NCBI GenBank assembly: GCA_023823795.1
Contig: CP085710.1
Span: forward strand, 2,382,001 to 2,446,000
From: Bacillus sp. F19
Lineage (GTDB): Bacteria; Bacillota; Bacilli; Bacillales; Bacillaceae
Reading direction: 5' to 3'
DNA length: 64,000 bases
Shown here one piece after another: positions 13,695 through 48,883 of the stretch. The translations under genes were made by a program, and so were the position numbers. The notes under the pieces were generated by a model. It saw only the letters and a list, made by a program, of their open reading frames with translations, was not told where the DNA came from and ran no database searches. Position 1 is the stretch's first letter. Each line of letters begins with the position of its first letter.

Positions 13695-13756
13695 CAATTC
13701 AAAATCTATAATGTTAGTAGTTGTGATCAAAATTTAGCAGGAAGGATGTCGAAATA

Positions 13757-23950: not shown

Positions 23951-26900
23951 ATGATCTTTAAAAAAACGTTCGGTTTGATTGTATTAATGATGATTCTTAC
24001 GATTATTCATTCTTTAGTCAGGCCTGAGCAGATTTTTGCTGAAACAAAAAACCTCGCTTTAGGTAAAACGGTATCTGCTTCAGGTAATGAAGTAGAATGG
24101 CTTTTTGCGGAGAATGCTGTTGATGGAGATCCTGCTTCAAGATGGTCATCTGCTATAGAAGATGATCAATGGTTAATAGTTAATCTTGGAAAAAATGAAA
24201 ATATATCACGAGTAGTCATTAATTGGCAAACCCCTGCTGAAAGATACAAAATTTTAGTCTCTAAAGATAAGGAGCATTGGGTAAATGTTAAAGAAGACGA
24301 TGGGGTACTTACAGCAGGAGGGAAGAAAGATACGATCGAGTTCGATAAAGCAGAAGCCAGATATGTCAAATTTCAGGGAGTAAAGAGAAGACCAGTAGAA
24401 GGTATATTATACGGATATTCAATTTTCGAATTTGAAGTATACGAAGACAAAGATCCTTTAACTGAAATAATAAAGGATATTAGAGAAAAAATAAGTATCG
24501 AAAAAGGACAAAAAGAAATCGTTCTGCCTAAAACACCTGAAGGATATAAAGTTACTTTATATGGAAGTGATCGACTGCCTGTTATCGATGCAAAAGGCCG
24601 TATTAACAAACCATTGGTAGACGCTAAGGTAAATCTTCTTTTGCAGGTTGAAGATGAGAGTGATCCTGATAATAAAATATCTGATAATGTTCTTGTAACC
24701 GTTCCTGGACAACATGTACAAACGGAGGATTTAAATCAAGAGCCGAGAGTAATACCGTCATTGCGTGAATGGTATGGCAGAACAGAGAAATTTGCATTGG
24801 CAAAGACTTCAAAGATCGTCGTGAATAAAGCAGACAAAGATGCTCTCGGAAGAACAGCTGAATTAACCAAAAATGATATAAAAGAGATTACAAATCTTAA
24901 TTTGGAGATTACTTACGGTACTCCAAAAGCGGGAGATATATATTTATCCTTAGATGATTCATTAACGTCTCTCGGGGAAGAAGGGTCCATCTTTGATGTT
25001 GAAGATTACGTATCCATAAAATCATCGAAAGTTAAAGGTGTATTTTATGGGACAAGGACAGCTCTGCAAATATTACAACAGGATGAAAAACACAAATATA
25101 TCCCAAAGGGGATTGCAAGGGATTATCCGAAATATGAAGATCGAGGGTTTATGCTGGATGTAGCTAGGAAATTTTATTCCATTGAGTTCTTAAGGGATTA
25201 TGTCAAGCAAATGTCCTTTTATAAGATGAACCGTTTTCAAATACATTTGAATGATGATGTAGGCACTCCATTTCCTGATGGCACAAAAGCAGCCTTTCGA
25301 TTGGAGAGCGAAAAGTATCCTGGTCTAACGAGTAAAAACGGTTTTTATACGAAAAAGGAATTTAGAGATCTTCAGCAGCTCGGTATGGATTATGGCATTA
25401 ATGTCGTTCCGGAGATTGATACTCCAGGACATTCTGGGGCATTTATCAAATATGATCCAACTTTAGGAACAGCCAATAATCTGGACATAACTAAGCCCAA
25501 AACAGTGAATTTTGTTAAAGGCTTGTTTGATGAATATATCGATGGTGATAATCCGGTTTTCATAGGACCAGATGTTCATATTGGCACTGACGAATATTCG
25601 GGTAATGATAACGAGGCATTCCGAAAATACATGGACACACTTATTAACCATATTAACAGTAAGGGCAAGCATCCGCGTCTATGGGGTGGGTTGACAAAGC
25701 ATGATGGTGAAACACCAATCAGCAATAATGCAACAATGGATATTTGGTATGAACCATATGGCGGAGCACAGCATGCAATTGATCTTGGATATAATATCGT
25801 AAATGTTTATACGAACCTTTTATATATTGTTCCACAATTATATGCGGACTATTTAAATTCCGGGTATCTTTATAACAATTGGGAGCCAAATAATTGGGTT
25901 GAAACGGTATTGCCATTCGGACATCCGAACGTTAAGGGTGCAATGTTTGCATTATGGAATGACATTTCCACAGCAAAGGGAGTTTCAATGGCTGATTCCC
26001 ATCACAGAATTCTGCCTGCAATGCAGGTGGTGTCAGAAAAGATGTGGTCTGGAACAAGTGCAGACAAGGATTTCAACAAGTTTGAAGAAGATGCATCCAA
26101 GATCGGAGATGCTCCAAACGTCAACCTATCTCATAAAATTCATGTTGGAAATAAAGATGGAAACGTCGTCAAATACCTTTTTGAAGAGAAGTTCAGGGAT
26201 TCATCAGGCAACGATTTTGATGGTTCCGGAAAAAATGTGAAGATGGCTGATGGGCTGTTTGGGAATGGGGTAAAGTTTAATGGCGGAGAAAGTTACATTA
26301 AAACACCTTTACGATCATTGGGCTTTGGCTGGACCATCTCTATGTGGGTTAAACCAGATGCCGACAATCCGGATGATGCCGTACTGCTCGAATCGCCTGA
26401 AGGTCAATTAAAGCTTTCTCAAGGGGATACCGGAAAATTAGGGTTCTCAAAGGAAGGCTATCATAGTGTTTTCGATTACAAAGTTCCTGCAGGTGAATGG
26501 ACACATCTGCTGTTGACAGGCGATAGCAGTGGTACATCTCTTTTTGTAAATGGCAGTAAATATGCTGAAAGCCTTAAAGATGGCGGAAAGCTTGAAACAT
26601 TTGTTTTACCTATGCAGAGAATAGGGAGTAAAACAAACTCGTTTAAAGGTGTAATTGATCATGTGTCAATTAATAATAAAGCCGTAGATTTACATGGTAA
26701 TTTGGCATTGAATAAAAATGCGGAATCGTCAAGAGCAGAATCTTCTACTTATTCATCGGATAAAGCTGTAGACGGGAAATGGGATACAAGGTGGTCAAGT
26801 GCTTCAGAAGATGATGCATGGTTTTTAGTTGATCTTGATGAACCAATTGAAATTAACAAGGTATCGATTGCGTGGGAGACTGCCTACGCTAAAAAATATA

Positions 26901-27322
26901 AAATTCTAGTTTCAGAAGACAAGGAAAATTGGACAAATGTGATTAAAGATAACAATGGGATAGTAACGGGAAGCGGTGGCAGAGACAATATCACATTTGA
27001 CAAAGTAAAAGCCAGATATGTTAAATTTCAAGGAATTGAAAGGGCAACGATCTTCGGGTATTCTTTCTATGAATTTGAGATTTTTTCTGACAAAAACCTA
27101 GTAGGAAATAAAACGGATCTGAAGAATCGTTTGACTGAAATCAATAGTGAAAACCTGAAAGAATCTAAATATACAAAAGAAAGCTGGCAACATCTCGAGC
27201 AGGCGCAGCAGGTAACCGAAATCACACTGAACAAACTGGACGCAAACCAAGCGGAGATCGATGATGCATTAGCCGCTTTGAGTAAAGCACGTGACGGGCT
27301 GGAAGAAAAGCAATCGTCATAA
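23951..27322 (+). CDS. Secreted modular GH20 beta-N-acetylhexosaminidase
   Basis: 1123 aa: signal peptide (1-30), CBM32 (about 33-170), GH20 N-terminal domain (about 265-395), GH20 catalytic barrel (about 397-710), LamG-like domain (about 735-915), second CBM32 (about 917-1050) and a C-terminal FIVAR-type helical repeat. The catalytic Asp547-Glu548 pair lies in VHIGTDEY, where most relatives have HIGGDE. It would remove terminal GlcNAc or GalNAc from glycans outside the cell. No sortase or SLH anchor is visible. It follows the DUF4855 gene by 267 bp and ends with a terminator. Confidence 0.92.
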   Translation: MIFKKTFGLIVLMMILTIIHSLVRPEQIFAETKNLALGKTVSASGNEVEWLFAENAVDGDPASRWSSAIEDDQWLIVNLGKNENISRVVINWQTPAERYKILVSKDKEHWVNVKEDDGVLTAGGKKDTIEFDKAEARYVKFQGVKRRPVEGILYGYSIFEFEVYEDKDPLTEIIKDIREKISIEKGQKEIVLPKTPEGYKVTLYGSDRLPVIDAKGRINKPLVDAKVNLLLQVEDESDPDNKISDNVLVTVPGQHVQTEDLNQEPRVIPSLREWYGRTEKFALAKTSKIVVNKADKDALGRTAELTKNDIKEITNLNLEITYGTPKAGDIYLSLDDSLTSLGEEGSIFDVEDYVSIKSSKVKGVFYGTRTALQILQQDEKHKYIPKGIARDYPKYEDRGFMLDVARKFYSIEFLRDYVKQMSFYKMNRFQIHLNDDVGTPFPDGTKAAFRLESEKYPGLTSKNGFYTKKEFRDLQQLGMDYGINVVPEIDTPGHSGAFIKYDPTLGTANNLDITKPKTVNFVKGLFDEYIDGDNPVFIGPDVHIGTDEYSGNDNEAFRKYMDTLINHINSKGKHPRLWGGLTKHDGETPISNNATMDIWYEPYGGAQHAIDLGYNIVNVYTNLLYIVPQLYADYLNSGYLYNNWEPNNWVETVLPFGHPNVKGAMFALWNDISTAKGVSMADSHHRILPAMQVVSEKMWSGTSADKDFNKFEEDASKIGDAPNVNLSHKIHVGNKDGNVVKYLFEEKFRDSSGNDFDGSGKNVKMADGLFGNGVKFNGGESYIKTPLRSLGFGWTISMWVKPDADNPDDAVLLESPEGQLKLSQGDTGKLGFSKEGYHSVFDYKVPAGEWTHLLLTGDSSGTSLFVNGSKYAESLKDGGKLETFVLPMQRIGSKTNSFKGVIDHVSINNKAVDLHGNLALNKNAESSRAESSTYSSDKAVDGKWDTRWSSASEDDAWFLVDLDEPIEINKVSIAWETAYAKKYKILVSEDKENWTNVIKDNNGIVTGSGGRDNITFDKVKARYVKFQGIERATIFGYSFYEFEIFSDKNLVGNKTDLKNRLTEINSENLKESKYTKESWQHLEQAQQVTEITLNKLDANQAEIDDALAALSKARDGLEEKQSS

Positions 27323-27822: not shown

Positions 27823-28833
27823 ATGAAACATGTTCTTGTTATCGGTGCTGGAACAATGGGAAGTGTTCATGCTTCGGCATATGCAAAAATGGAGGGTGTT
27901 AAATTAGCAGGGATTGTGGATATACGAGAACAGATAGGTATAGAGCTTGCCTTATCGGTCAGCACAAATTATTACAAGACCATTGATGAAGCAATGAACA
28001 GCGTTCCGGTAATCGACATTATTGATGTATGTTTGCCGACCTATCTGCATAAAGAATTTGTCATGCAGGCTGCAGACTTAGGGAAAAATGTCATATGCGA
28101 AAAACCGCTCGCAAGAACAAAAGAAGATGCACAAGAAATGATTGCTTATTGTAAAGAAAAAGGTGTCAAATTGTTTGTCGGACACGTCCTTCGTTTTTTC
28201 CAAGAGTATAAAAAAACAAAAGAAATCGTTGATTCGAATGAAATCGGTAAGCCAGTAATGGTAAGAACCAAAAGGGGCGGGGTATTTCCAGAAGCTTGGA
28301 ATGATTGGTACGCAGATTTTCAAAAAAGCGGCGGATTAGTACTGGATATGGTAATACATGATATTGATTTCTTAAGATGGTGCTTTGGTGAGGTTGAACG
28401 AGTTTATGGAAAAAGTGTATTAGGAAGAAGTTTTAACCGAATAGATTATGCCCTTCTTACACTTAGATTTGAAAGTGGAGTGATTGCTCATGTTGAAGGA
28501 ACATGGGCACATCAAGGATTCTCTACTTCAATAGAGATTGTTGGCGACAAGGGAATAATAGAATATGATAGCTCAAAAGAACGAAGCATTTATTCACAAA
28601 TTCGGCAAAAAGAAAATAGCGGTGGTGTAGCTGTTCCGTCGAGTCCATTAAAAGAAGATCCATATTTTCAGGAATTGGCACATTTTCTGGATTGTATAGA
28701 AAATGATTTAGAACCACTCGTTTCAGCTGAAGATGCATACAAAGCCCTAGAAATATCACTTGCAGGACTTGAATCTATTAAGAGTGGTAAAGTTGTAGAA
28801 ATCAAATCTTCATTGTCTATCCCTAGAGTTTAA
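27823..28833 (+). CDS. Gfo/Idh/MocA family oxidoreductase (first of four)
   Basis: 336 aa. The Rossmann loop VIGAGTMGSVHA (residues 6-17) binds NAD(P), the EKP motif (93-95) gives the conserved lysine, and DMVIHDIDFLRW (175-186) holds the catalytic His179. Such enzymes oxidise or epimerise sugars, often at C3, or cyclitols. GTGAGGAG precedes the ATG. It starts a run of seven genes with the same direction and short gaps, ending in an RpiR regulator. The substrate is not known. Confidence 0.9.
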   Translation: MKHVLVIGAGTMGSVHASAYAKMEGVKLAGIVDIREQIGIELALSVSTNYYKTIDEAMNSVPVIDIIDVCLPTYLHKEFVMQAADLGKNVICEKPLARTKEDAQEMIAYCKEKGVKLFVGHVLRFFQEYKKTKEIVDSNEIGKPVMVRTKRGGVFPEAWNDWYADFQKSGGLVLDMVIHDIDFLRWCFGEVERVYGKSVLGRSFNRIDYALLTLRFESGVIAHVEGTWAHQGFSTSIEIVGDKGIIEYDSSKERSIYSQIRQKENSGGVAVPSSPLKEDPYFQELAHFLDCIENDLEPLVSAEDAYKALEISLAGLESIKSGKVVEIKSSLSIPRV

Positions 28834-28868
28834 TCATTTCAGAATTAGAAAAAAGGAGGAAATAAGAT

Positions 28869-29840
28869 ATGAAGGTAGGAATTATAAGTTTCGCACATAT
28901 GCATGCGCATAGTTATGCAAGTGCTCTCAAGGAAATAGATGGAGTCATCCTTGTTGGAATTGCTGATGAAAATGAGGCGCGTGGACGCGATGCAGCAGAT
29001 AAGTTTGGTGTTGCTTATTATATTGATTTCAATGACCTTCTTGCTGAAGACATAGATGCTGTAATTGTTACTTCCGAAAATAGCAATCACCACCGCCATG
29101 TAACTGCAGCAGCAAAAGCGGGAAAACATATTCTTTGTGAAAAACCTCTCGGAACGACAATGAAAGAGATGGAGGAAATGGTATTAACTTGTCAAAAACA
29201 CGGTGTAAAACTTCAAACTGCTTTCCCTGTTCGTTTTAATACATCCATTCAAGAAGCCGAAAAAATAATTAAAGAAGGTAAACTTGGTCGAGTTATTGCA
29301 ATGAAAGGAACAAATCGCGGGACAAATCCAGGTGGTTGGTTTGTCAATAAATCTCTATCCGGCGGCGGTGCCGTTATGGATCATACCGTCCATGTAGTTG
29401 ATATCATGCGTTGGTTCTTGAATGCAGAAGTAACAGAGGTCTATGCTGAGGCCGATGCTTTTTTCTCAGATGAAATTGATGATTGTGGAATATTAACGAT
29501 GGAGTTTGATAATGGTGTGTTTGCCACATTAGATTGCAGCTGGTCCCGCAATAAGACGTATCCCACTTGGGGTGACGTAACACTTGAAGTGATTGGTTCG
29601 GAAGGAACTATTTTCATAGATGCATTCGGGCAAAAGATAAATGTTTATAGTGATGCAAATGGAACAAAATGGCATTATTGGGGAGATGATATGGATAAAG
29701 ATCTTATCAAAGATTTTATCACATGTGTAAAGCTAGATTTAGAGCCATCAATTACGGGGCAAGATGGATTGAAGGCTGTTGAAGTGGCTCTTGCAGCTTA
29801 TCAGGCTGTTGAGCAAAAAAGTCCGGTAAAACTAGAGTGA
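28869..29840 (+). CDS. Gfo/Idh/MocA family oxidoreductase (second of four), unusual nucleotide loop
   Basis: 323 aa. EKP is at 91-93 and GGGAVMDHTVHVVDIM places Asp171, His175 and Asp178 as in the family. The N-terminal loop, however, reads ISFAHMHAHSYASAL instead of GxGxxG. This variant occurs in a subgroup of the family and may change cofactor handling; some relatives keep NAD tightly bound. AAAGGAGG precedes the ATG, 35 bp after the first oxidoreductase. Its active site differs enough from its neighbours to suggest a different step of the same pathway. Confidence 0.88.
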   Translation: MKVGIISFAHMHAHSYASALKEIDGVILVGIADENEARGRDAADKFGVAYYIDFNDLLAEDIDAVIVTSENSNHHRHVTAAAKAGKHILCEKPLGTTMKEMEEMVLTCQKHGVKLQTAFPVRFNTSIQEAEKIIKEGKLGRVIAMKGTNRGTNPGGWFVNKSLSGGGAVMDHTVHVVDIMRWFLNAEVTEVYAEADAFFSDEIDDCGILTMEFDNGVFATLDCSWSRNKTYPTWGDVTLEVIGSEGTIFIDAFGQKINVYSDANGTKWHYWGDDMDKDLIKDFITCVKLDLEPSITGQDGLKAVEVALAAYQAVEQKSPVKLE

Positions 29841-29943
29841 TTCCATATTTCCCCTTTTTTAGAAGCGCGTGGATGAAATAGGAAATAGGAAATAGGAATA
29901 TATGCCCTAAACATTAAACAAATTATGGAGGGAGTGTTTTTGT

Positions 29944-30777
29944 GTGGGTTTTAAAAAAGGAATCAATGCTTGGTGCTTTCCTAAATCAATGGAAATTGAA
30001 AAAATATTTTATCAAGCAAAGGATTACAAATTTGATGGTGTAGAATTGAACTTGACCGAAGATGCCGATTCCCCTTTTCATATGGGATCATCTGAAGAGG
30101 AATTGTTAAAAATCATTGAATTAGCTGAGCAATATGACCTAGTGCTTCCAACAGTTGCTACAGGCCTTCACTGGAAATATTCCTTAACTTCAAATGAACA
30201 GAAAATACGAGAAAAAGGTAAAGCAGTGATCAGCAAGATGCTGGAAGCAGCAAAAATTTTTGGTGCTAAAACCATACTTGTTGTTCCAGGTGTCGTAGAT
30301 TCATCTGTCTCCTATGACATTGCTTATGAACGCTCTTTAACGGCTATTAAGGAACTAGCAGAAAAAGCTGAGGAGCTGCAAGTCTCTATTGGGGTCGAAA
30401 ACGTATGGAATAAATTTCTATTAAGTCCATTAGAAATGAGAGATTTCGTAGACAAAACGAAAAGCAATTATGTAGGTGTCTATTTTGATGCAGGAAATAT
30501 TCTGCAATTCGGATACCCGGAGCAATGGATTAAAATACTCGGAAATCGAATCTGTGCGGTTCATGTTAAGGATTTTAACTGTTCGGTAGGAAATATTAAT
30601 GGGTTTGTTCCACTGCTTGCAGGGGATGTTCAGTGGGAAAGGGTAGTAACTGCATTAAAGGAAATTAATTATAACGGTTTTATTACACCAGAGATTCCAC
30701 CATATAAATTCAGCCCTGAGCAAATGATTAGGCATACTTCTAATAGCTTAGAGACAATTTTGAAACTAGAAAACTAA
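29944..30777 (+). CDS. Xylose-isomerase-like TIM-barrel protein (sugar phosphate isomerase/epimerase family)
   Basis: 277 aa. The four expected metal ligands are visible: Glu in VSIGVENVW, Asp in VYFDAGNI, His in AVHVKDF and Glu in ITPEIPPY. The fold includes isomerases, epimerases, inosose dehydratases (IolE) and lyases acting on 3-keto-glycosides. The start is GTG, nine bases after GGAGGGAG. It lies between two Gfo/Idh/MocA genes, so it probably acts on an oxidised sugar made by one of them (inference). Confidence 0.87.
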   Translation: MGFKKGINAWCFPKSMEIEKIFYQAKDYKFDGVELNLTEDADSPFHMGSSEEELLKIIELAEQYDLVLPTVATGLHWKYSLTSNEQKIREKGKAVISKMLEAAKIFGAKTILVVPGVVDSSVSYDIAYERSLTAIKELAEKAEELQVSIGVENVWNKFLLSPLEMRDFVDKTKSNYVGVYFDAGNILQFGYPEQWIKILGNRICAVHVKDFNCSVGNINGFVPLLAGDVQWERVVTALKEINYNGFITPEIPPYKFSPEQMIRHTSNSLETILKLEN

Positions 30778-30891
30778 TAATTTCTGTTATTTGGACGTCC
30801 GAATAGTTCAAAAAGGTAAATAGAAGAATCAGTTTTTTAATAAATGTTTTTTTCGGAATATTTCGATTCTTAAACACTATGGAGGAATTAT

Positions 30892-31998
30892 ATGAGTAAG
30901 AAATTGAATGTCGGAATCATTGGCTGTGGAGGGATTGGAACCGAAAAACATATGCCTAGTCTTGCGAAGCTGAAACAAGTAGAAATGGTCGCATTTTGTG
31001 ATATTTTATTTGAAAAAGCACACCATGCTGCCCAAAAATTTGGGGCTAGAGATGCAAAAGTTTATGATGATTTTACAGATTTATTAAAAGATGAAAATAT
31101 TGATGTCATTCATGTTTGTACACCTAATGATTCGCATGCCGATATTACTGTGGCCTCATTGGAAGCCGGGAAGCATGTTATGTGTGAAAAACCAATGGCA
31201 AAAACAGCAGCTGAAGCACGCCGGATGGTTGAAACTGCAAGACGAACTGTGAAAAAACTATCAATTGGCTATCAAAACCGATTCCGTCATGATAGTCAGT
31301 ATTTACATAAGGTGTGTACAGAGGGAGGACTGGGGGATATTTATTTTGCTAAAGCCCATTCGATCAGGCGAAGAGCTGTACCAACGTGGGGAGTATTCCT
31401 AGATAAAGAAAAACAAGGGGGAGGTCCATTAATTGATATTGGGACGCATGCACTTGATTTAACTTTATGGATGATGAACAACTATAAACCAAAAGTAGTG
31501 CTAGGTAAAACCTACCATGAACTTGGCAAAAAAGAAAATGCTGCAAATGCTTGGGGCCCATGGGATCCAAAGCAATTTACAGTCGAGGATTCCGCGTTTG
31601 GGTTCATTACGATGGAAAATGGTGCAACGATCATACTGGAATCCAGTTGGGCTATAAATTTGCTGGACGCTGAGGAAGGAAGATGTACGCTGGCAGGTAC
31701 AGAAGGCGGTGCTGATATGAAGGATGGACTTCGTATTAATGGAGAAAGGCATGGTAAATTATATACTAACCATATTGAGCTGGAAAGCAGTGGGGTAGCT
31801 TTCTATGAAGGAAAGACCGAAAATGAATCTGATCTGGAATCTCGCTTGTGGATTGAAAGCATATTAAACGACACTGATCCTGTGGTTAAACCAGAGGAAG
31901 CGCTAGTAGTTACAGAGATTTTAGAAGCAATCTATGAGTCTTCAAAAACCGGTAAAGCCGTTTATTTTCACGATAAACTCCATGCGGTACAAGGATAA
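30892..31998 (+). CDS. Gfo/Idh/MocA family oxidoreductase (third of four)
   Basis: 368 aa, with the NAD(P) loop IIGCGGIGTEKHMP (9-22), CEKPMAK (Lys100) and GGGPLIDIGTHALDLTLW carrying the catalytic His. The longer C-terminal domain resembles the fourth oxidoreductase at 40353 more than the first two. GGAGG is upstream of the ATG and 114 bp separate it from the preceding gene. It is likely a sugar or sugar-acid dehydrogenase in the cytoplasm. Confidence 0.9.
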   Translation: MSKKLNVGIIGCGGIGTEKHMPSLAKLKQVEMVAFCDILFEKAHHAAQKFGARDAKVYDDFTDLLKDENIDVIHVCTPNDSHADITVASLEAGKHVMCEKPMAKTAAEARRMVETARRTVKKLSIGYQNRFRHDSQYLHKVCTEGGLGDIYFAKAHSIRRRAVPTWGVFLDKEKQGGGPLIDIGTHALDLTLWMMNNYKPKVVLGKTYHELGKKENAANAWGPWDPKQFTVEDSAFGFITMENGATIILESSWAINLLDAEEGRCTLAGTEGGADMKDGLRINGERHGKLYTNHIELESSGVAFYEGKTENESDLESRLWIESILNDTDPVVKPEEALVVTEILEAIYESSKTGKAVYFHDKLHAVQG

Positions 31999-32062
31999 CA
32001 GCTGATATGTGGTGGGTATAAATTAAATGATGGCAAATAAATAAATCCAAGGTGGTGCAAGA

Positions 32063-32821
32063 ATGAAAATAGGATTACAACTTTATACTTTACGGGATGA
32101 GTTATCAAAGGACTTTATTAGTACCCTTAGAAAGGTGGCTGATATTGGTTACCAAGGTGTAGAGTTCGCTGGATATGGAGGGCTTAAGCCAGAAGAATTG
32201 AAAGATGTTTTGGAGCAATTAAATATAAAATCTCTTGGCAGTCATGTGAGTGTAGATCGTCTAAAACATGCATTGGATGAAGAGATTAATATAAATCGTT
32301 TCATTGGCAGCGAGTACGTAGTTTGTCCAGGTTTGCCTTTAGAAATGAGAAATTCACTAGATGCAATTAAAGAAACTGCACAGCTTTTTACAGAGTATGG
32401 AAAGAAATTTGCCGAACATGGAATTCAGTTTTGTTATCATAATCATTCCTTTGAGTTTGAAGAAAAAATTGCAGATGAACTGCTTTTCGATCGTTTAATG
32501 AACGCAGCTTCTGAAAAATTTATGGGAATCGAACTTGATGTTTGCTGGGTTTATAATGCTGGATACGACCCATTAATTTACTTGAAAGAATACAACGGAC
32601 GTATACCATTGCTTCATGTAAAGGATATTATTCATGCCGGTACGAAAGCGGCAGAGACAGTTGAACTTGGAAAAGGTGAAATGGATCTTATTCCTATTTT
32701 GGATGCTGCAGTTAAAAATAAAGTACAGTGGTTAATTGTTGAACAGGATGAATGCAGCAATCCGCCTTTAGAGTGTGTTGAGTCGAGCTTCAAGTGGTTG
32801 AAAAATACGATTGAACAATAA
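32063..32821 (+). CDS. Xylose-isomerase-like TIM-barrel protein
   Basis: 252 aa. Conserved elements are KIGLQLYTLRDEL at the N-terminus, FCYHNHSFEF, GIELDVCWV, LLHVKDI and LIVEQDEC, giving the usual His, Glu, Asp, His and Glu active-site set. The IGLQLYTLR start is characteristic of the subgroup often found beside Gfo/Idh/MocA dehydrogenases. AAGGTGG lies upstream. The gap to the next gene is 24 bp. The reaction is unknown: isomerisation, epimerisation or beta-elimination of a keto sugar. Confidence 0.87.
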   Translation: MKIGLQLYTLRDELSKDFISTLRKVADIGYQGVEFAGYGGLKPEELKDVLEQLNIKSLGSHVSVDRLKHALDEEININRFIGSEYVVCPGLPLEMRNSLDAIKETAQLFTEYGKKFAEHGIQFCYHNHSFEFEEKIADELLFDRLMNAASEKFMGIELDVCWVYNAGYDPLIYLKEYNGRIPLLHVKDIIHAGTKAAETVELGKGEMDLIPILDAAVKNKVQWLIVEQDECSNPPLECVESSFKWLKNTIEQ

Positions 32822-32845
32822 ATCTAAACTCTATGGAGGAAAAAA

Positions 32846-33709
32846 ATGAAAATCGGGTTAAGTTCTTATAGTTTATTTTCTGAAATCCAATCTGGTCAAA
32901 TGACGATTTTTGATATTATCAACTGGATAGCTGAACATGGCGGGGAGCATATAGAAATTGTCCCTCTTGGGTATAGTCTAGTAGAAAACCCAAGTTTAGC
33001 AGAGGAAATTGTTCAAAGGGCGAAAGAGGCAGGAATTGAGATTTCCAACTATGCTATTGGTGCAAATTTTATTACGAATGACGAAGAGGCCTATCAAGCT
33101 GAAATTATGAGAGTCAAAAAAGAAGTAGACATTGCTCATCGGCTTGGTGTTACACTTATGCGCCATGATGTCGCATGGCGTTCTATACTTGAATCGTCAA
33201 TTATGCAGTATGAAGAGGATTTGCCAAGACTTGTTCATGCTTGTCAAGAAGTCGCTGATTATGCAATTCAATACGGGATTACAACCAGTGTAGAAAATCA
33301 TGGATTTTTTATACAAGCGAGTGATCGTGTTTTACGTCTTCTTGATCTAGTTAATCGGCCAAATTTTAAGACTACAATGGACATTGGAAATTTCATGTGT
33401 GTTGATGAAGACCCGATCGCTGCTGTGAAGAAAAATATATCGCATGCTTCTATGCTGCATATCAAGGATTTTTATTTGAGACCCTCAGATGAAAACCCTG
33501 GAGAAGGCTGGTTTCAAACAACTTCAGGAAATTATTTAAGAGGATCTATTGTTGGACATGGAGACATTCCAATTCGGAAGATTCTAAACATAGTCAAGGA
33601 ATCCGGCTATGATGGCTATTTATCAATTGAGTTCGAAGGGATGGAAAATTCCAGGAAAGGTTCACAAATTAGCTTGGATAATGTTCGTCGTTTATGGAGC
33701 GAATTGTAA
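32846..33709 (+). CDS. Xylose-isomerase-like TIM-barrel protein
   Basis: 287 aa. The ligands appear in TTSVENHGFF (Glu, His), TTMDIGNFM (Asp), MLHIKDFY (His) and LSIEFEGME (Glu). It is the third member of this fold in the island and is clearly diverged from the other two, so it likely has its own substrate or step. GGAGG precedes the ATG. It ends 163 bp before the RpiR regulator's ribosome site region. Confidence 0.87.
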   Translation: MKIGLSSYSLFSEIQSGQMTIFDIINWIAEHGGEHIEIVPLGYSLVENPSLAEEIVQRAKEAGIEISNYAIGANFITNDEEAYQAEIMRVKKEVDIAHRLGVTLMRHDVAWRSILESSIMQYEEDLPRLVHACQEVADYAIQYGITTSVENHGFFIQASDRVLRLLDLVNRPNFKTTMDIGNFMCVDEDPIAAVKKNISHASMLHIKDFYLRPSDENPGEGWFQTTSGNYLRGSIVGHGDIPIRKILNIVKESGYDGYLSIEFEGMENSRKGSQISLDNVRRLWSEL

Positions 33710-33884
33710 AACCTTTTACTAAGGGTTTGCTGATCTGGTAATACTAGTATGAAAATAAAGCGCATGATAAAATAATGGAATGAATCTCTTTTTTTAATAA
33801 GTAATGGAGGAAAAATTCTCCAATGGCTATTTTAACTTTGTCATATCCAAAAGGCAATGCTGAAAAAGGGAGGTGAATATAGAA

Positions 33885-34748
33885 TTGAGTAATGAGAATA
33901 TAAAAAAAGGTAATCCCTTAATCATGATACAAAGTGTCTACAAGTCATTAACTAAAGCAGAGCAAAAGGTGGCTGATGTAATTTTGGTGGATTCGAAAGA
34001 ATCTATGTATTATTCAGTCACAGATTTAGCTGAGAAAGCGAATGTAGGTGAAACAACGGTAATTCGTTTTTGCAGAAAATTGGGATTTCGTGGTTATCAG
34101 GAGTTTAAGTTGGCAATTGCTCAAAATATTGCTGGTATTGTTGATAGAGCTTCAGAAGAACTACGAGAAACAGATGATTTTAATGAATTGGCGCAGAAGA
34201 TAACCTTACACAATAAACAAGTAATTAAAGAGACTTTAAGCTTAATACAAGAATCTCAATTTCAAAAAGCGGTTGATGCGATTGTAAAAGCTAGAAGACT
34301 ATATTTCTTTGGCGTAGGTTCATCTGGTATGACAGCCTCCGATGCCCAATATCGATTTATGCGCCTAGGCTTTAATGCTGAATGTGCAACAGACGCACAT
34401 ATTATTGCAATGAATTGTGCACTAGTTTCGGAGCAGGATGTTGTTGTTGGAATTACGAGTTCCGGGAGCACGAAGGATTTAGTTGATTTAGTCGAGTTGG
34501 CAAAGGTAAAAGGAGCTTTTATTATTTGTATAACAAACCATGCGAAATCTCCTATAACTCAATATGCGGATGCCATTTTATTGGCTGCAGCAAGAGAAAA
34601 TCCATTGCAAGGCGGAGCTTTTTCCTCGAAGATTGGTCAACTTCATGTTTTAGATATATTGACCACGATTATCTCCATTCAACAAAAAGAACAGAGCCAG
34701 CTATCACTTGAAAAAACAGCAAAAGCTGTTCTTGACCGTTTGTTTTAA
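33885..34748 (+). CDS. RpiR-family transcriptional regulator
   Basis: 287 aa: N-terminal HTH (about 10-80; LTKAEQKVADVIL, ANVGETTVIRFCRKLGFRGY) and a C-terminal SIS sugar-phosphate-binding domain (about 120-255; FFGVGSSGMTASDA, TSSGSTKDLVDL). The TTG at 33885 is preferred: GGGAGG at 33868-33873 is 11 bases away, while a GTG at 33873 overlaps it. RpiR proteins sense sugar phosphates. It sits at the end of the oxidoreductase run and just before the ABC transporter promoter, so it is the best candidate controller of both. Confidence 0.9.
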   Translation: MSNENIKKGNPLIMIQSVYKSLTKAEQKVADVILVDSKESMYYSVTDLAEKANVGETTVIRFCRKLGFRGYQEFKLAIAQNIAGIVDRASEELRETDDFNELAQKITLHNKQVIKETLSLIQESQFQKAVDAIVKARRLYFFGVGSSGMTASDAQYRFMRLGFNAECATDAHIIAMNCALVSEQDVVVGITSSGSTKDLVDLVELAKVKGAFIICITNHAKSPITQYADAILLAAARENPLQGGAFSSKIGQLHVLDILTTIISIQQKEQSQLSLEKTAKAVLDRLF

Positions 34749-35067: not shown

Positions 35068-36366
35068 ATGAAAGCGCTATATCGGAAGTTTGTCTTGATG
35101 CTATTAGCAGTATCGTTAGTATTTGTTCTTGGAGCCTGTAGTTCTAAAACATCAAAAGAAGGAGAAAAAGTTGAAATTAGTTTTTGGCATGGCTACGCGG
35201 AAAGAGATTCAGAAGCTCTTAACGAAAGAGTGGAAGCATTTAATAAAAGCCAAGACAAAATACATGTCAAAATAGTAGGAAATCAGAATCCAGAAAAGCA
35301 AATTACAGCAATTTCCGGCGGTAATCCACCAGACATCGTTCAAACACAGTGGAATAATATTGGACCATGGGCTGATGCAGGGGCGGTACAAGATTTAGAT
35401 GAGAATATTAAAAAGGATCAATTTGATACTTCAAGGATTATTCCAGCTGCATTAGAAAGAATGGTAGTTAAAGAGAAAACATATGCTTTGCCAATTACAA
35501 TGAGCATGTCATCCAATTTACTGTACAACAAAGAAGCATTTGAGAAAGCAGGGCTTACAAGTCCTCCTGAGACAATGGAGGAACTGATGGAATATGCAAA
35601 AAAATTAACACTTAGAGATAAAGATAATAATATTACTCAAATTGGTTTTGTTCCTGATTATCCATGGATCGATAATGTTTTTTGGCCAATTGTTTTTGGC
35701 GGTTCTTTTTATGATGATGCTACAGAAGAAGTTACCCCAAATGGTGATGAAAATATAAAGGCAATTGAATTTCAGCATCAATTTTATGAAGAATTTGGCG
35801 AGGCGGAAATAGATAAATTCCGATCTGGCATGGGAAAAATGGATACGAAACAAGACCCGTTATTAACGGGGAAATTAGCGATGATGATCGGATGGGAATA
35901 TAACTTTGAAGATGAAAGAGGGCCGGAGGGACCAATAGGCATAGCACCATTTCCGTATCCAGCTGACAAACCTGAATTAAAAGGATCAGGAATGGTAAGT
36001 CCCGTTGCTATGTTTATTCCAAAAAATGCAAAGCATAAAAACGAGGCGTGGGAATTTTTGAAGTTCTTGCTTTCAGATGACTCTCAAGTAAAAATCGCAA
36101 CTGCTGATCACAAAATCCCTATTATTAAAGATGTTTTAGATGATCCTCGCCTAACTGAGAATAAGGATATGGAACCTATGTTTCCATTCTATGAGGCAGC
36201 AAAAAATGATAATTTAAAAGGTTTCCCTAACAGTATTTATATCAACGAGTATTTACAGGCATTGACCGAAGAAACGGAAAAGGCGCTTAAAGGTACAGTT
36301 TCTGCCAAAGAGGCAATGGATAACGTGAAGGAGAAAATTCAACCTTTAGCAGATAAAGCAAAATAA
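35068..36366 (+). CDS. ABC transporter sugar-binding lipoprotein
   Basis: 432 aa extracellular solute-binding protein of family 1. The lipobox VLGAC makes Cys24 the lipid-anchored N-terminus. The motifs SFWHGYAERDSEAL and NGNP-type hinge regions fit carbohydrate-binding members. GGGGAGG precedes the ATG, and a leader of about 180 bases separates it from promoter A. It delivers an oligosaccharide or amino sugar to the two permeases downstream. Confidence 0.92.
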   Translation: MKALYRKFVLMLLAVSLVFVLGACSSKTSKEGEKVEISFWHGYAERDSEALNERVEAFNKSQDKIHVKIVGNQNPEKQITAISGGNPPDIVQTQWNNIGPWADAGAVQDLDENIKKDQFDTSRIIPAALERMVVKEKTYALPITMSMSSNLLYNKEAFEKAGLTSPPETMEELMEYAKKLTLRDKDNNITQIGFVPDYPWIDNVFWPIVFGGSFYDDATEEVTPNGDENIKAIEFQHQFYEEFGEAEIDKFRSGMGKMDTKQDPLLTGKLAMMIGWEYNFEDERGPEGPIGIAPFPYPADKPELKGSGMVSPVAMFIPKNAKHKNEAWEFLKFLLSDDSQVKIATADHKIPIIKDVLDDPRLTENKDMEPMFPFYEAAKNDNLKGFPNSIYINEYLQALTEETEKALKGTVSAKEAMDNVKEKIQPLADKAK

Positions 36367-36386
36367 TATAAGTATGTTTATTGTAT

Positions 36387-36412
36387 AAGGGGCTGTTCTT
36401 TGGCCCTTTTCT
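36387..36412 (+). terminator. Weak intra-operon attenuator hairpin
   Basis: AAGGG and CCCTT pair, followed by TTCTTTT. Such hairpins between binding-protein and permease genes commonly allow excess binding protein. Confidence 0.5.
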
Positions 36413-36429
36413 TTTAAGGAGGGACAGAA

Positions 36430-37353
36430 ATGAAAGAAAGCCTAGAATCAGGTATTAATAGGAGGAAACGAAAACAATTCTTAATAGGAATTTTATTTAC
36501 CAGCCCTTGGATTGTCGGTTTTTTTATTTTTCAAATCTATCCAATATTAATGTCTTTTTATTACAGTTTAACGGATTATAATTTATTTTCCGATCCTGTT
36601 TGGGTAGGTTTTGATAATTATAAACAGTTATTTTCAGACGAAAAGTTTTTCTTATCACTTTATAATACTTTTTATATCACGGCTTTTGGCTTGATTCCTC
36701 ATATGGCTTTTGCATTGCTGATGGCAATGTTGTTAAATACAAAAGTTAAAGGGATGTCTATCTATCGGACCATTTATTTTTTGCCAACTCTTGTACCGGC
36801 TGTAGCAGGTTCTTTATTGTGGATGTGGATGTTTAATGGTCAATATGGGTTAATTAATGAAGTACTATCCTGGTTTGGACTTGTTCAGCCGAATTGGCTG
36901 GTTGATCCGAATTGGACAAAGCCAGCTATTATTATCATGGGCTTTTGGGGAACGGGAACAACTACGATTATGTATCTAGCTTCCCTTCAAGATGTACCAG
37001 CTGTTTACTATGAAGCAGCCGAGATAGATGGTGCGAATTTTTGGCATAAATTTAGGCATATTACGTTACCTGCAATATCACCTGTAACTTTATTTCTTTT
37101 AATAATAGGATTAATAGGTTCTTTTCAATTTTTCACCCAAGGAATCATTTTTGCTCAATCTGCTCAATCGATAGGCGGGCCTGAGAACTCCATGTTGTTC
37201 TATGCGGTCTATTTATATCAAACTGCTTTTTCATTTTTGAAGATGGGCTATGCATCAGCCATGGCTTGGGTACTATTTATCATCGTGCTGCTATTTACAA
37301 TTATTATTTTGAAAACTTCCGCTAGATGGGTTTACTATGGAGGTGAAAAGTAA
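36430..37353 (+). CDS. ABC sugar transporter permease (MalF/UgpA type)
   Basis: 307 aa with six membrane segments. The EAA loop reads YYEAAEIDGANFWHKFRHIT, in which the glycine contacts the ATPase. AGGAGGG precedes the ATG. It pairs with the second permease, whose start overlaps this stop codon. It forms half of the membrane channel of the sugar importer. Confidence 0.93.
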   Translation: MKESLESGINRRKRKQFLIGILFTSPWIVGFFIFQIYPILMSFYYSLTDYNLFSDPVWVGFDNYKQLFSDEKFFLSLYNTFYITAFGLIPHMAFALLMAMLLNTKVKGMSIYRTIYFLPTLVPAVAGSLLWMWMFNGQYGLINEVLSWFGLVQPNWLVDPNWTKPAIIIMGFWGTGTTTIMYLASLQDVPAVYYEAAEIDGANFWHKFRHITLPAISPVTLFLLIIGLIGSFQFFTQGIIFAQSAQSIGGPENSMLFYAVYLYQTAFSFLKMGYASAMAWVLFIIVLLFTIIILKTSARWVYYGGEK

Positions 37354-38282
37354 TGCCGAATTTAGAACTAAATAATGCAAACAAACAGCTGGCGAATACG
37401 CTCGAAAAGAATCAGGCCAGCAAAAAATCTATTAAACTGAAAGAAGTTAGAAAGAATAATCGAAACAGAGTCAAAAGAAAAATATTGTCACATCTAGGAC
37501 TTTCATTAGTAGGTATTCTATTTCTTTTCCCTTTTGCCTGGCTTGTACTTACTTCGGTTAAAACGGCGGATGAAATTTTCGCAATACCTATTGTCTGGTG
37601 GCCAGAAGAGATTCAATGGTCCAATTATGTAAATTCTATTCAAAAAATTCCTTTTTTCCAATATACATGGAATACGATTGTCATTTGTTTCTTTTCTGTT
37701 GTTGGACAACTATTATCCGCTCCATTAGTAGCATATGGATTAGCACGGATTAAATTCACTGGACGAAATTTTATCTTTATTGTCATTATCGGTACAATGA
37801 TATTGCCTTTTCAAGTAACGATGATTCCAGTTTATGTTTTGTTCAATAAACTGGGGATGCTTGATTCTTTTCTGCCATTAATATTGCCAAACTTCTTTGG
37901 GTCAGCATTATACATATTTATGCTGCGCCAATTTTTCTTAACCATTCCGTTTGAATTAACGGAGTCAGCGAAAATAGATGGAGCATCAGAGTTCAGAATA
38001 TATTGGCAAATTATTTTGCCATTATCAAGACCTGCACTTTACTCAGTGGCACTATTTACGTTTTTAGCATCATGGGGAGATTTTCTTGGACCATTAATCT
38101 ATTTAACGGATCCGGAAAAATGGACATTATCCATTGGCTTGAAAGCGTTTATTGGCGAGTTTGATGTTGAATGGGGACTGTTGATGGCTGCTTCAACGTT
38201 ATTTACCTTTCCAATAATTGTTTTGTATTTCTTTGTTCAGCGCCAATTTATTCAGGGGATTACACTTACTGGTTTTAAATAA
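37353..38282 (+). CDS. ABC sugar transporter permease (MalG/UgpE type)
   Basis: 309 aa. After a polar, lysine-rich N-terminal extension of about 45 residues come six membrane segments. The EAA loop reads TESAKIDGASEFRIYWQIIL. The start shares one base with the previous stop (TAATG), giving tight coupling. No ATPase gene follows, so the transporter probably uses a shared MsmX-type ATPase encoded elsewhere, as is common in Bacillaceae. Confidence 0.93.
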   Translation: MPNLELNNANKQLANTLEKNQASKKSIKLKEVRKNNRNRVKRKILSHLGLSLVGILFLFPFAWLVLTSVKTADEIFAIPIVWWPEEIQWSNYVNSIQKIPFFQYTWNTIVICFFSVVGQLLSAPLVAYGLARIKFTGRNFIFIVIIGTMILPFQVTMIPVYVLFNKLGMLDSFLPLILPNFFGSALYIFMLRQFFLTIPFELTESAKIDGASEFRIYWQIILPLSRPALYSVALFTFLASWGDFLGPLIYLTDPEKWTLSIGLKAFIGEFDVEWGLLMAASTLFTFPIIVLYFFVQRQFIQGITLTGFK

Positions 38283-38489: not shown

Positions 38490-39089
38490 ATGTCATATAA
38501 CGGAAAGATATTTCAATTATTGGAAGTGGCGCAAAGATATTCATACTTAAATCTTTTGTGGATATTATTTTCTGTTCCTATTATCACTATTTCCCCTGCA
38601 ACAGTTGCAGCTCAGGGAGTTATCAAGGAATGGACAGAGGGCATTGAAACCCCGATAACAAGTACATTTCTGTTCCATTTTAAAAGGAATTTGAAAAGAT
38701 CCATATCGGTTGGGCTAATCCAGTTCATCTTCTTAGGTGTATTTTTCGGATATTTAATGATCTTTTTCCAACTGCCGTCTTTATGGAAAGTTTTTGCTTG
38801 TATTATCCTTCTCTTTTTTCTTGTTATCTACTTAATAATGTCGGTTTATTTGTATCCGCTGATCATTCATTTTGAAATGGGCTTTCAACAACTATTTCGC
38901 AATTCGTTTTATCTTGCGGTATCGCAGCCATTTGCAGCAATTTTGAATCTATTAATCTTAAGTATAATGCTAGTTGTTTCTTTTATATTGCCCGTATTAT
39001 TTATTCTATGTACATTTAGTGTATGCATTATGATGAACTATAAAATGACCAATTTCATATTTAATAAGGTTAAGAAAGTAGCAGTTTAA
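38490..39089 (+). CDS. YesL family (DUF624) membrane protein
   Basis: 199 aa with about five membrane segments. The ITISPATVAAQGVIKEW stretch near residue 30 is typical of DUF624. Family members sit beside carbohydrate ABC transporters in Bacillus and Paenibacillus, as here, but their role is not established; a transporter accessory is often supposed. TAGGAG lies before the ATG. It follows the permeases by 207 bp. Confidence 0.85.
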   Translation: MSYNGKIFQLLEVAQRYSYLNLLWILFSVPIITISPATVAAQGVIKEWTEGIETPITSTFLFHFKRNLKRSISVGLIQFIFLGVFFGYLMIFFQLPSLWKVFACIILLFFLVIYLIMSVYLYPLIIHFEMGFQQLFRNSFYLAVSQPFAAILNLLILSIMLVVSFILPVLFILCTFSVCIMMNYKMTNFIFNKVKKVAV

Positions 39090-39471: not shown

Positions 39472-39620
39472 AAGAAAAATCCTCCTGTAAAAAGGTTAAA
39501 TAAATATATTTTTTTAGATGTGGTTATCAAAAATTTGTTGTCCCCAATCAGGTTGAGACATTGATGCAAAAATAACAATCTCTCATCCTTTTAATTCATC
39601 AAGTGGAAGGGAGCTATCAG

Positions 39621-40340
39621 ATGGAAAGTGAAGTGTTATTAAGCAAGATTAAAGGTAAGTTAATCGTCTCCTGTCAAGCATTGGATAATGAACCTTTGGC
39701 AGGATTAGGTATGATGGGAAACATGGCAAGAGCAGCTAAATTAGGTGGTGCTGCAGCGATTAGGGCAAATGGAGGGAGTGATGTTAACGATATTAAAACA
39801 AAAACAAGTTTACCGGTAATTGGAATTGTGAAAAAGTATTATTCCGACAGTGAAGTATTTATAACTCCAACTGTAAAAGAAATAGATGAATTAATTCAGG
39901 CAAAAGCCGACATTATCGCTTTAGATGCGACCAGTCGCCTGCGCCCTGGGGGCATTTCCTTTGATGAACTTATCCAATATATCAGAGAAAAAAGTTCCGC
40001 TCTTATAATGGGTGATGTTTCAACAGTCCATGAAGGTATTTCAGCTAAGGAATTAGGTGTAGATCTTATATCGACAACTTTATCGGGATATACATCTTAT
40101 AGTCCTCAAATAACAGGACCGGATTTTTCTTTAATTCAGGAACTTGTAAAGTATGTTGGATTGCCAATCATTGCAGAAGGAAGAATTCGGGAGCCGGAAG
40201 AGGCTAGCAAAGCTTTACAGATGGGTGCACATGCAGTAGTTGTTGGTGCGGCCATTACTCGACCGCATCTTATCACAAGACGTTTTGCAGATGCACTGGA
40301 AAATAACTTTCCAATAAAATCAGGAAACATTAAAAATTAA
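39621..40340 (+). CDS. nanE: N-acetylmannosamine-6-phosphate 2-epimerase
   Basis: 239 aa TIM-barrel enzyme converting ManNAc-6-P to GlcNAc-6-P. Recognisable segments are LIVSCQALDNEPL, AKLGGAAAIRANG, PVIGIVKKYY, DIIALDATSR and IIAEGRI, which supply the substrate-binding arginine, lysine, aspartate and glutamate. The ATG at 39621 follows AAGGGAG. The next two genes, an oxidoreductase and a ROK kinase, follow closely. This indicates use of N-acetylmannosamine or sialic-acid-related sugars, though no sialidase or aldolase is present. Confidence 0.93.
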   Translation: MESEVLLSKIKGKLIVSCQALDNEPLAGLGMMGNMARAAKLGGAAAIRANGGSDVNDIKTKTSLPVIGIVKKYYSDSEVFITPTVKEIDELIQAKADIIALDATSRLRPGGISFDELIQYIREKSSALIMGDVSTVHEGISAKELGVDLISTTLSGYTSYSPQITGPDFSLIQELVKYVGLPIIAEGRIREPEEASKALQMGAHAVVVGAAITRPHLITRRFADALENNFPIKSGNIKN

Positions 40341-40352
40341 GGAGGAATTCTG

Positions 40353-41429
40353 ATGAGGTTATTAAACATCGGCCTAATTGGTGCAGGAGGAATCTCAGAT
40401 CTTCATTTTAATTCGTATGAAAAAAATCCAGAGGCAAATATTTATGCAATTTGTGATTTAAACAAAACAAGAGCAGAAGAGAAAGCTGAAAAATATGGCG
40501 CTTCAAAAGTTTATACAGATTATCGTGAACTTCTCACAGATCCTGATGTGGATGCTGTCAGCATTTGTACATGGAATAATTTACATGCCGAAATTATCAT
40601 TGATGCATTACATGCTGGAAAACATGTATTAGTTGAAAAGCCACTCTGTACTACATTAGAAGATGCCTACAAAATTCAAGAGGCGGTTCAAAGAACAGGA
40701 AAATTCCTTCAAGTTGGATTTGTAAGAAGATATGGTGATAATACTCAGCTATTGAAAAAATTTATTGATAAGGGAGAACTTGGTGAGATTTATTATGCCA
40801 AAGCGTCCTGCATAAGAAGACTTGGCAATCCAGGCGGCTGGTTTGCTGACAAAGAGCGTTCTGGCGGAGGGCCTCTTATTGACATTGGGGTCCATGTCAT
40901 TGATCTATGCTGGTATTTAATGGGGAGACCGAAAGTAAAAAGTGTAAGTGGAAATTCATATAAAAAATTAGGGAATCGAGCGAACATTAAAAATTTATCG
41001 TTTTATAAGGCGGCTGATTATGACGCGGAAAAAAATACAGTAGAAGATATGGCCAATGCCATCATCCGTTTCGAAAATGGGGCATCCCTAATGGTTGATG
41101 TCAGCTTCACCCTGCATGCTAAACAAGACGAGATTACCGCAAAAATTTACGGTAACAAAGGCGGAGCAGAAATTGAACCGGAGTTATTTATTGTTTCAGA
41201 AAAGCACGATACGATTTTAAATATCAGTCCGCAAGTCGATCATTCGACTTATGACTTTGAAAAAGGGTTCCAAAATGAAATTGATGCTTTTGTTGATAGC
41301 TGTCTAAATGGGACCCCAGTTATTAGCCCGGTCGAAGATGGGGTAGAGATTATGAAGATTTTAACAGCTATCTATGAATCTAGTGAAAAAGGCTGTGAAA
41401 TCCAGTTTACACCAGCAGCAATTAAATGA
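40353..41429 (+). CDS. Gfo/Idh/MocA family oxidoreductase (fourth of four)
   Basis: 358 aa, with NAD(P) loop LIGAGGISDLHFN (8-20), VEKPLCT (Lys96) and GGGPLIDIGVHVIDLCWYL with the catalytic His. It begins 12 bp after nanE, with GGAGG just before the ATG. Its closest relative in the window appears to be the 30892 gene. In this position an action on an N-acetylated hexosamine, or on a sugar released by the secreted enzymes, is plausible. Confidence 0.9.
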   Translation: MRLLNIGLIGAGGISDLHFNSYEKNPEANIYAICDLNKTRAEEKAEKYGASKVYTDYRELLTDPDVDAVSICTWNNLHAEIIIDALHAGKHVLVEKPLCTTLEDAYKIQEAVQRTGKFLQVGFVRRYGDNTQLLKKFIDKGELGEIYYAKASCIRRLGNPGGWFADKERSGGGPLIDIGVHVIDLCWYLMGRPKVKSVSGNSYKKLGNRANIKNLSFYKAADYDAEKNTVEDMANAIIRFENGASLMVDVSFTLHAKQDEITAKIYGNKGGAEIEPELFIVSEKHDTILNISPQVDHSTYDFEKGFQNEIDAFVDSCLNGTPVISPVEDGVEIMKILTAIYESSEKGCEIQFTPAAIK

Positions 41430-48750: not shown

Positions 48751-48883
48751 TACAAGGTTAAAGTATTTGTGTTCCAACAGTGACATTCCTGTCCATTTGG
48801 CAGAACACTCGTGCTTAAGTAAAAGATAGAACTATAGGTGAATAAAAGATTCATAATTAATGATATTGGGAGGACAGATTAAA

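Follow-up and report, generated by a model that had tools for sequence, protein, structure and literature searches.

A Bacillus gene cluster with predicted 3-keto-glycoside enzymes, apparently linked to hexosamine- and mannose-containing glycans

What might four oxidoreductases and three TIM barrels do when their genes lie beside those of a beta-hexosaminidase and an amino-sugar epimerase? A locus of Bacillus sp. F19 raises this question, and we examined it within a window of 64,000 nt (contig CP085710.1 of assembly GCA_023823795.1, positions 2,382,001 to 2,446,000, forward strand). An initial annotation of this window had proposed an oxidative pathway that processes an N-acetylhexosaminide or mannoside through a keto intermediate. 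Our analysis partly supports that interpretation: we lean, by a little, towards a 3-keto-glycoside system that catabolises oligosaccharides derived from hexosamine/mannose-containing glycans and taken up by the cell. Below, Gfo stands for a Gfo/Idh/MocA oxidoreductase, TIM for a PF01261-type TIM barrel, P1 to P7 for proteins of the window, L-numbers for fetched stretches and G-numbers for genomes, with the genome of Bacillus sp. F19 as G000; GH denotes a glycoside hydrolase family. The central genes are as follows (window positions).

23951..27322, + strand: GH20 beta-hexosaminidase with F5/8C domains (PF00728, 123 bits)
27823..28833, + strand: P1, Gfo; proposed 3-keto reductase or dehydrogenase and partner of P2 (Pfam, tree, Lys/Asp/His)
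28869..29840, + strand: P2, Gfo (Pfam, tree clade of its own)
29944..30777, + strand: P3, TIM barrel of 3-epimerase type, metal site E/D/H/E (PF01261, 150 bits; ligand columns)
30892..31998, + strand: P4, predicted DgpA-family glycoside 3-dehydrogenase (9m3d, E 2.5e-133; DgpA clade 100/100)
32063..32821, + strand: P5, predicted AtOGE-type Mn2+ 3-keto-O-glycoside beta-eliminase (8bvk, E 2.2e-27; ligand table)
32846..33709, + strand: P6, TIM barrel with E-x-H / D / H / E; candidate hydratase, eliminase or epimerase (Pfam, ligand table)
33873..34748, + strand: RpiR-family regulator (profile match)
39603..40340, + strand: NanE, N-acetylmannosamine-6-phosphate 2-epimerase (NF002231, 301 bits; cut-off 189)
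40353..41429, + strand: P7, Gfo of the YcjS/DgpA superclade, likely glycoside 3-dehydrogenase (7xr9, E 1.9e-61; tree)
41512..42513, + strand: ROK-family sugar kinase (PF00480, 244 bits; under every NCBIfam cut-off)

Open reading frames and Pfam matches agreed with the layout first described, in which three Gfo and three TIM genes precede the RpiR gene on the + strand and a fourth Gfo gene follows nanE; the intact ligands it reported also held, although "alternating" is a loose word for the order Gfo-Gfo-TIM-Gfo-TIM-TIM. P1, P2 and P4 match PF01408 at 89.6-116 bits, and P3, P5 and P6 match PF01261 at 63.5-150 bits. All four oxidoreductases, P1, P2, P4 and P7, have the complete Lys-Asp-His set of Gfo active sites, and the metal sites are complete in all three TIM barrels, as E/D/H/E in P3 and P6 and as H/D/H/E in P5. 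These differing patterns speak against P3, P5 and P6 as interchangeable IolE-like dehydratases. Likewise, a recent tandem duplication of the Gfo genes is disfavoured by their identities of 25-37% (P1-P2 27%, P4-P1 25%, P4-P2 26%, P4-P7 37%) and their separate tree clades. All trees were built on selected rows, and the TIM tree was a quick one with long branches and low support.

Which reactions could such enzymes catalyse? The best solved relatives of P4 were two DgpA chains (E 2.5e-133 and 3.6e-127; 59% and 55% identity), P4 fell inside a 100/100 clade with the DgpA chains 7xr9 and 9m3d, and its catalytic set is K100, D182 and H186. These results support P4 as a DgpA-type 3-dehydrogenase, with NAD-dependent C3 oxidation as the predicted reaction. 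For P5, the best solved relative was 8BVK (E 2.2e-27). This structure is AtOGE, an O-glycoside beta-eliminase with the metal ligands His132, Asp163, His189 and Glu233 and the catalytic His134 (PMC10628242, from partial text, as for all papers cited here). Residues H126, H128, E157, D159, H185 and E227 of P5, numbered by hand count on the translation, correspond to AtOGE H132, H134, E161, D163, H189 and E233; the AtOGE metal and catalytic residues are also common to seven aligned relatives, and chain 8tcs agrees over its aligned segment. P5 is thereby supported as a predicted OGE-type Mn2+ beta-eliminase. Since P4 lies in the DgpA clade and P5 carries the AtOGE residues, the two likely form an oxidation-elimination pair, a known chemistry, and to this extent the 3-keto-glycoside reading of the initial annotation is borne out. 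A P4 orthologue (72%, cut by the contig end) directly follows P5 (52%) in a metagenome-assembled Bacilli genome (L097). A paralogous locus of the own genome, L010, holds P4 (69%) and P5 (39%) homologues with one further Gfo between them, and P4 and P5 homologues so spaced occurred in 4 of 20 P4-homologue loci.

We then asked whether the other proteins travel with this pair. Across 348 genomes of the class, a search found close homologues of P6 in 44 and of P2 in 32, or 56 genomes together. Around these homologues 43 loci were fetched (L009, L015 and L173 from the own genome), and counts refer to 42 of them, omitting L199 as a second stretch of one contig; some of the 42 overlap or share a genus (L157/L195, L158/L196, L155/L201, L151/L152). 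Homologues were called at bit scores of at least 250 for P6, 350 for P7, 250 for P2, 180 for P1 and 120 for P3. A P7 orthologue was present in 16 of the 19 loci holding P6, P1 in 23 of the 27 holding P2, and P3 in 10 of the 42. P1-P2(-P3) and P6-P7 are separate modules that recur in other Bacilli. A P4 orthologue was found in 2 of the 42 loci, L162 and L165; P4 usually stands apart from P1, P2, P6 and P7, so the window represents two modules joined. The exact P1-P6 order appeared in none of the other loci fetched. Because parts of the P1-P6 cluster are found side by side again in further families of the class, however, their grouping is beyond chance. In L162, from another family (G706), P2, P1, P6, a TIM barrel, a Gfo, P5 (37%), P7, a Gfo and P4 (73%) lie within about 11 kb, and P1, P2, P4, P5, P6 and P7 plus a GH123 gene lie within 13 kb of that genome. 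This arrangement indicates that the window's joining of modules, though rare, is not the only one of its kind.

Three further loci deserve mention. The own genome carries a paralogous cluster at about 4.177-4.185 Mb (L009) in the order ROK, P3, Gfo, P1, P2, substrate-binding protein, permeases, P6, P7; its P6 copy (62%) has an in-frame TAA, a YcaO gene lies downstream, and no glycoside hydrolase was found among the neighbouring genes tested. In L199 (G544), at about 11776-14300, short P7 and P6 fragments stand beside a second NanE and an RpiR gene, possibly as a decayed copy of the cluster. Finally, the gene abutting the P6-P7 pair in L163 (8422-9867) encodes an N-sulphoglucosamine sulphohydrolase-type sulfatase, which hints at sulfated substrates in that genome.

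The placement of the module proteins brings in an epimerisation route. P7 belongs to a 99/99 superclade with DgpA and E. coli YcjS (RefSeq name D-glucoside 3-dehydrogenase), whose closest window relatives are P4 (36% identity) and P7 (34% over 353 aa); P1 and P2 form one separate clade each. On the model of E. coli YcjS-YcjR-YcjQ, P7 or P1/P2 could oxidise C3, P3 or P6 epimerise C2 or C4, and another oxidoreductase reduce the product, while ordinary hydrolases cut the glycan bond. The kinship with YcjS fits this idea, as do the E/D/H/E sites of P3 and P6, which are those of YcjR and not the H-x-H of eliminases, the fact that NanE acts on the C2 epimer N-acetylmannosamine (ManNAc), and an extra zinc-type dehydrogenase, weakly YcjQ-like (24-26%), in some related clusters. 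Set against it are the eliminase residues of P5 and one feature of P6, whose first metal ligand is Glu rather than His: at the position of the AtOGE base P6 retains a His, which YcjR lacks. YcjR also grouped with neither P3 nor P6 in the quick, poorly supported TIM tree. Epimerisation in place of cleavage thus strikes us as possible but doubtful.

Do the modules also keep company with amino-sugar genes elsewhere? We mapped GH20 and NanE in 36 of the 56 genomes with P2 or P6 (one to three per genus, the own genome included), where expected counts assume uniform gene placement. The window copies are the sole GH20 (search at E 1e-5) and the sole NanE found in the own genome. GH20 was present in 15 of the 36 genomes and lay within 6 kb of a P2 or P6 locus in 6 of these 15, against 0.09 expected (own, G566, G615, G739, G573 and G725); a 12 kb limit added none. 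The linkage to GH20 on which the initial annotation had drawn is thus conserved in some other genomes. NanE, found in 24 genomes, lay within 12 kb of a P2/P6 locus in 8 (own, G507, G588, G646, G544, G627, G670 and G725; 0.27 expected) and within 6 kb in 3 (0.13 expected). Leaving out the own genome gave 5/14 for GH20 and 7/23 for NanE. G566, G615 and G739 belong to one genus and G507, G588 and G646 to another, so that the linked genomes, being partly close kin, are not independent events. The NanE loci (L156, L195-L198, L200 and L201) hold an RpiR gene of 47-62% identity in 7/7 cases and a ROK kinase in 6/7, and the RpiR copies in NanE clusters of other families (L156, L195-L197, L200, L201) are 57-62% identical to that of the window; homologues of a DUF4855 protein of the window (29-34%) occur in the NanE/ROK/Gfo clusters L195-L198. 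G725 has a single run of NanE, NagB (290 bits; NCBIfam cut-off 237), ROK, a P7-like Gfo, a TIM barrel, P7, a zinc-type dehydrogenase, GH20, an unnamed gene, P3, P1 and P2.

Other glycosidases extended this pattern. A hexosaminidase (GH20, GH20C, GH123 or GH85) or GH38 gene was present in 11 of the 42 loci. GH38 genes lie near P6, P7 or P2 in L160, L161, L166, L169, L170, L201 and L211, and GH20 or GH20C genes in L153, L155/L201, L161, L166 and L211; L162 holds GH123, and L160 also encodes a GH2 protein with mannosidase-type Ig domains. Similarity to Pfam-typed proteins was the basis for naming the glycosidases in L166 and L211, as well as the GH38 in L160 and in L201. At about 4.80 Mb of the own genome (L173, 7165-9252), a GH85 endo-beta-N-acetylglucosaminidase lies beside a P6 copy and a second TIM barrel. 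Both glycosidase neighbours named by the initial annotation, GH20 and GH92, are real by Pfam, yet a linkage to GH92 did not hold up: no GH92 catalytic gene was found in the 42 related loci, and the alpha-mannosidase that recurs there is GH38. A candidate GH92 in L173 was rejected, its 88% match covering the F5/8C domain only, with no GH92 catalytic domain in Pfam. GH85, GH92, GH38 and GH20 as a set suggest N-glycan breakdown. Together, the conserved linkage supports an association of both modules, P1/P2/P3 and P6/P7, with NanE, hexosaminidases of the GH20 type and GH38 mannosidases.

Several observations weigh against a dedication to such glycans. Although 20 control loci around P4 homologues (L047-L066) gave 0 matches to the GH queries, NanE and DUF4855, the comparison favours the positive set, because the GH queries were drawn mostly from positive loci (self matches removed). 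By the tests applied, with Pfam run on part of the genes, 31 of the 42 loci showed neither a hexosaminidase nor GH38, and other glycosidases stand beside some loci: GH95 and GH3 (L159), a GH2 beta-galactosidase (L163), GH36 (L198) and a rhamnosidase type (L155). The linkage counts come from few families (f1, f50, f53, f71 and f81) and are uncorrected for kinship. A search with P4 across 81 genomes of the taxonomic family gave matches in 19, and the 11 best P4 copies outside the own genome (70-73%) sit in other operons with no hexosaminidase, mannosidase or NanE query match; their differing gene context led us to reject them as parts of an orthologous operon. The closest P5 relatives (54-55%), on five Paenibacillus contigs (L098-L101, L107), had no Gfo homologue in the fetched stretch, a result that reduces our confidence in the favoured reading; a Gfo homologue was present in 19 of 34 P5-relative loci. 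In all three Paenibacillus contigs checked (L099, L101, L107; about 10.0-12.0 kb), a radical-SAM/BATS gene comes after P5.

These points bear on a plainer explanation, namely a dgp/AtOGE-type operon for plain aryl- or C-glucoside degradation that has nothing to do with the hexosaminidase and nanE genes beside it. In its favour are the 55-59% identity of P4 with DgpA proteins and the occurrence of P4 with P5 away from hexosaminidases in L097 and L010. Moreover, D3dgpA, a member of the P4 clade, oxidises C3 of C- and O-glucosides and is inactive on galactose, rhamnose and glucuronide glycosides (PMC11239390), so P4-P5 may serve plain beta-glucosides. Given this range and the resemblance of P4 and P5 to glucoside enzymes, the N-acetylhexosaminide or mannoside substrate of the initial annotation stands on weaker ground. 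Counting against a plain glucoside operon is the conserved linkage of P1, P2, P3, P6, P7, RpiR and NanE to GH20 or amino-sugar genes; the CGDB (DgpB) beta subunit PF19906 also had no match in the genome, in a search that was silent in control genomes too. Overall, we regard this explanation as unlikely.

Could the cluster instead serve inositol? IolG was the best NCBIfam model for all four Gfo proteins, yet its scores of 123-194 bits fell short of the cut-off (355), and the IolE scores of the TIM barrels reached at most 66 bits against 290. The genome has a separate iol locus at about 959-966 kb, with IolG (463 bits), IolD (958 of 715), IolE (433 of 290) and an IolA-type methylmalonate-semialdehyde dehydrogenase, all over their NCBIfam cut-offs, and the real IolG of this genome falls in a separate 100/100 IolG clade. 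The scores, the tree and the iol locus together rule out the window proteins as inositol enzymes, and a pathway for myo-inositol or another cyclitol (IolG, IolE, IolI type) is the most improbable of the readings we weighed. The view that this is not plain inositol use was therefore right; classical inositol genes are lacking, as had been said, in the window but not in the genome. We found neither close orthology to IolG, IolE and IolI nor an absence of conserved linkage.

Sialic acid catabolism offers another explanation, with P1 or P7 as a NanOx/YjhC-type oxidoreductase for 2,7-anhydro-N-acetylneuraminic acid next to NanE and a NanK-like ROK kinase. NanE and ROK do stand on either side of P7, and the top ten PDB matches of P1 include YjhC (6o15) and 6z3b, which we take to be R. 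gnavus NanOx. Homologues of YjhC occur in N-acetylneuraminic acid operons (PMC7315737), which also speaks for this explanation. However, no NanA over the cut-off was found in the genome (best score 143 of 382 bits), P7 groups with YcjS and DgpA in a tree that held no YjhC, and G725 has two NanE genes, of which the one linked to P2 lies apart from the one that adjoins a NanA-like gene (361 of 382 bits). The explanation is accordingly very improbable. With NanA lacking, sialic acid is ruled out as the source of ManNAc-6-phosphate and does not explain the window NanE; the source must be either imported ManNAc or C2 epimerisation through the 3-keto form. A levoglucosan pathway was also rejected, since LgdA (NF052479, cut-off 650) is absent from the genome, where P4 scored 109 bits and the best Gfo, P7, 154.

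How does the cluster compare with systems already described? YcjQRS of E. coli is a related epimerising route in its mechanism. Its D-guloside/D-glucoside route likewise joins a Gfo 3-dehydrogenase, an E/D/H/E TIM barrel and a second dehydrogenase; the window adds the eliminase P5, NanE and GH20, and no zinc-type YcjQ homologue was found among the window proteins scanned. The AtOGE operon of Agrobacterium tumefaciens encodes four enzymes, with oxidation by a flavoenzyme first (PMC10628242). It shares with our cluster a P5-family Mn2+ TIM beta-eliminase, a second TIM barrel, a Gfo and 3-keto-glycoside chemistry, but its first oxidation is by the flavoenzyme GlycDH, and the partial text names no DgpA-type Gfo, NanE, ROK or GH20. 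In the levoglucosan pathway, Gfo proteins and TIM barrels carry out oxidation, elimination, hydration and reduction, and LgdA/B1/B2/C of Bacillus smithii resemble the window set in having two Gfo, two TIM barrels and an ATP-binding cassette (ABC) transporter (PMC7676230); the window Gfo proteins, however, lie outside the clades of LgdA homologues and their Gfo neighbours. The dgp enzymes oxidise C3 and then cleave in a metal-dependent step (PMC8563793). The DgpA/DgpBC cluster for puerarin C-deglycosylation resembles ours through P4, in the same clade as DgpA, and differs in that P5 is of the OGE type and P6 matches a DgpC1 chain at a mere E of 5.6e-5. Because operons of Gfo proteins and TIM barrels for oxidation, elimination, hydration and reduction are already described (PMC7676230, PMC10628242 and the dgp cluster), the chemistry itself is not new. 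For the recurrent partnership with GH20, NanE and GH38, and for the P1-P2 pair, we found no earlier description; the gene set was not described among the literature matches listed, in a search that left subscription literature largely outside.

Beyond the core enzymes, the favoured reading draws on flanking genes of the window.

21104..23683, + strand: protein with DUF4855, FIMAH and F5/8C (CBM32-type) domains, probably secreted (Pfam PF16147, 323 bits)
35068..38282, + strand: carbohydrate ABC transporter, binding protein and two permeases (permeases by sequence and homologues)
38490..39089, + strand: DUF624 protein (Pfam)
48860..52327, + strand: GH92 alpha-mannosidase with F5/8C domains (PF07971, 337 bits; TIGR01180, 379 bits over 249.55)

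The binding protein has weak NCBIfam carbohydrate/chitobiose matches, under the cut-off. GH92 starts 6.3 kb past the ROK gene and possibly acts on the same substrate as the cluster, although the linkage is not conserved. The DUF4855 domain may mark a glycan-active secreted enzyme.

With these genes, a 3-keto-glycoside system could work as follows. The secreted GH20, perhaps with the DUF4855 and GH92 proteins, would trim the glycan, and the ABC transporter would take up the product. P4 and P7 would oxidise C3 of the sugar ring with NAD+; P5, a Mn2+ TIM barrel, and perhaps P6 would then use the acid C2 proton for beta-elimination of the glycosidic bond. P6 or P3 might hydrate or epimerise the keto product, P1 and P2 might reduce it back to a normal sugar, and the ROK kinase and NanE could convert the amino sugar to GlcNAc-6-phosphate. 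The substrate of the system, and the exact reactions of P1, P2, P3, P6 and P7, are inferred. A narrower version, which we put forward tentatively and rate below the general one, is a modular oxidative pathway that specifically serves N-acetylhexosaminides or their mannosyl partners (GlcNAc, ManNAc or GalNAc glycosides, the N-glycan core). In it, C3 oxidation would fall to the DgpA/YcjS-type Gfo proteins, elimination or C2 epimerisation to an E-x-H TIM barrel and re-reduction to P1-P2; the ROK kinase and a NanE independent of NanA would then lead the product into glycolysis.

The cutting of amino-sugar glycans is usually ascribed to hydrolases or phosphorylases. A further, NAD- and metal-based way of opening or remodelling such glycans, repeated in several Bacilli families, would be added if P6/P7 and P1/P2/P3 convert hexosaminides via a 3-keto form. 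NanE genes would then also gain a role in genomes that lack NanA and cannot get ManNAc-6-phosphate from sialic acid. More modestly, the analysis gives testable functions to genes otherwise named "oxidoreductase", "sugar phosphate isomerase" or "kinase".

A promoter scan gave 62 promoter-like sites against 57.3 +/- 7.5 in shuffled sequence and thus no excess, and single-sequence AlphaFold models were unusable (mean predicted local distance difference test score 50 for P6 and 36 for DUF4855). Elsewhere in the window, a 461-aa open reading frame with no Pfam match at 13757-15142 is followed by a short-chain dehydrogenase and then by an FAD oxidoreductase, and a DDE transposase lies downstream of the GH92 gene at 54209-55642.

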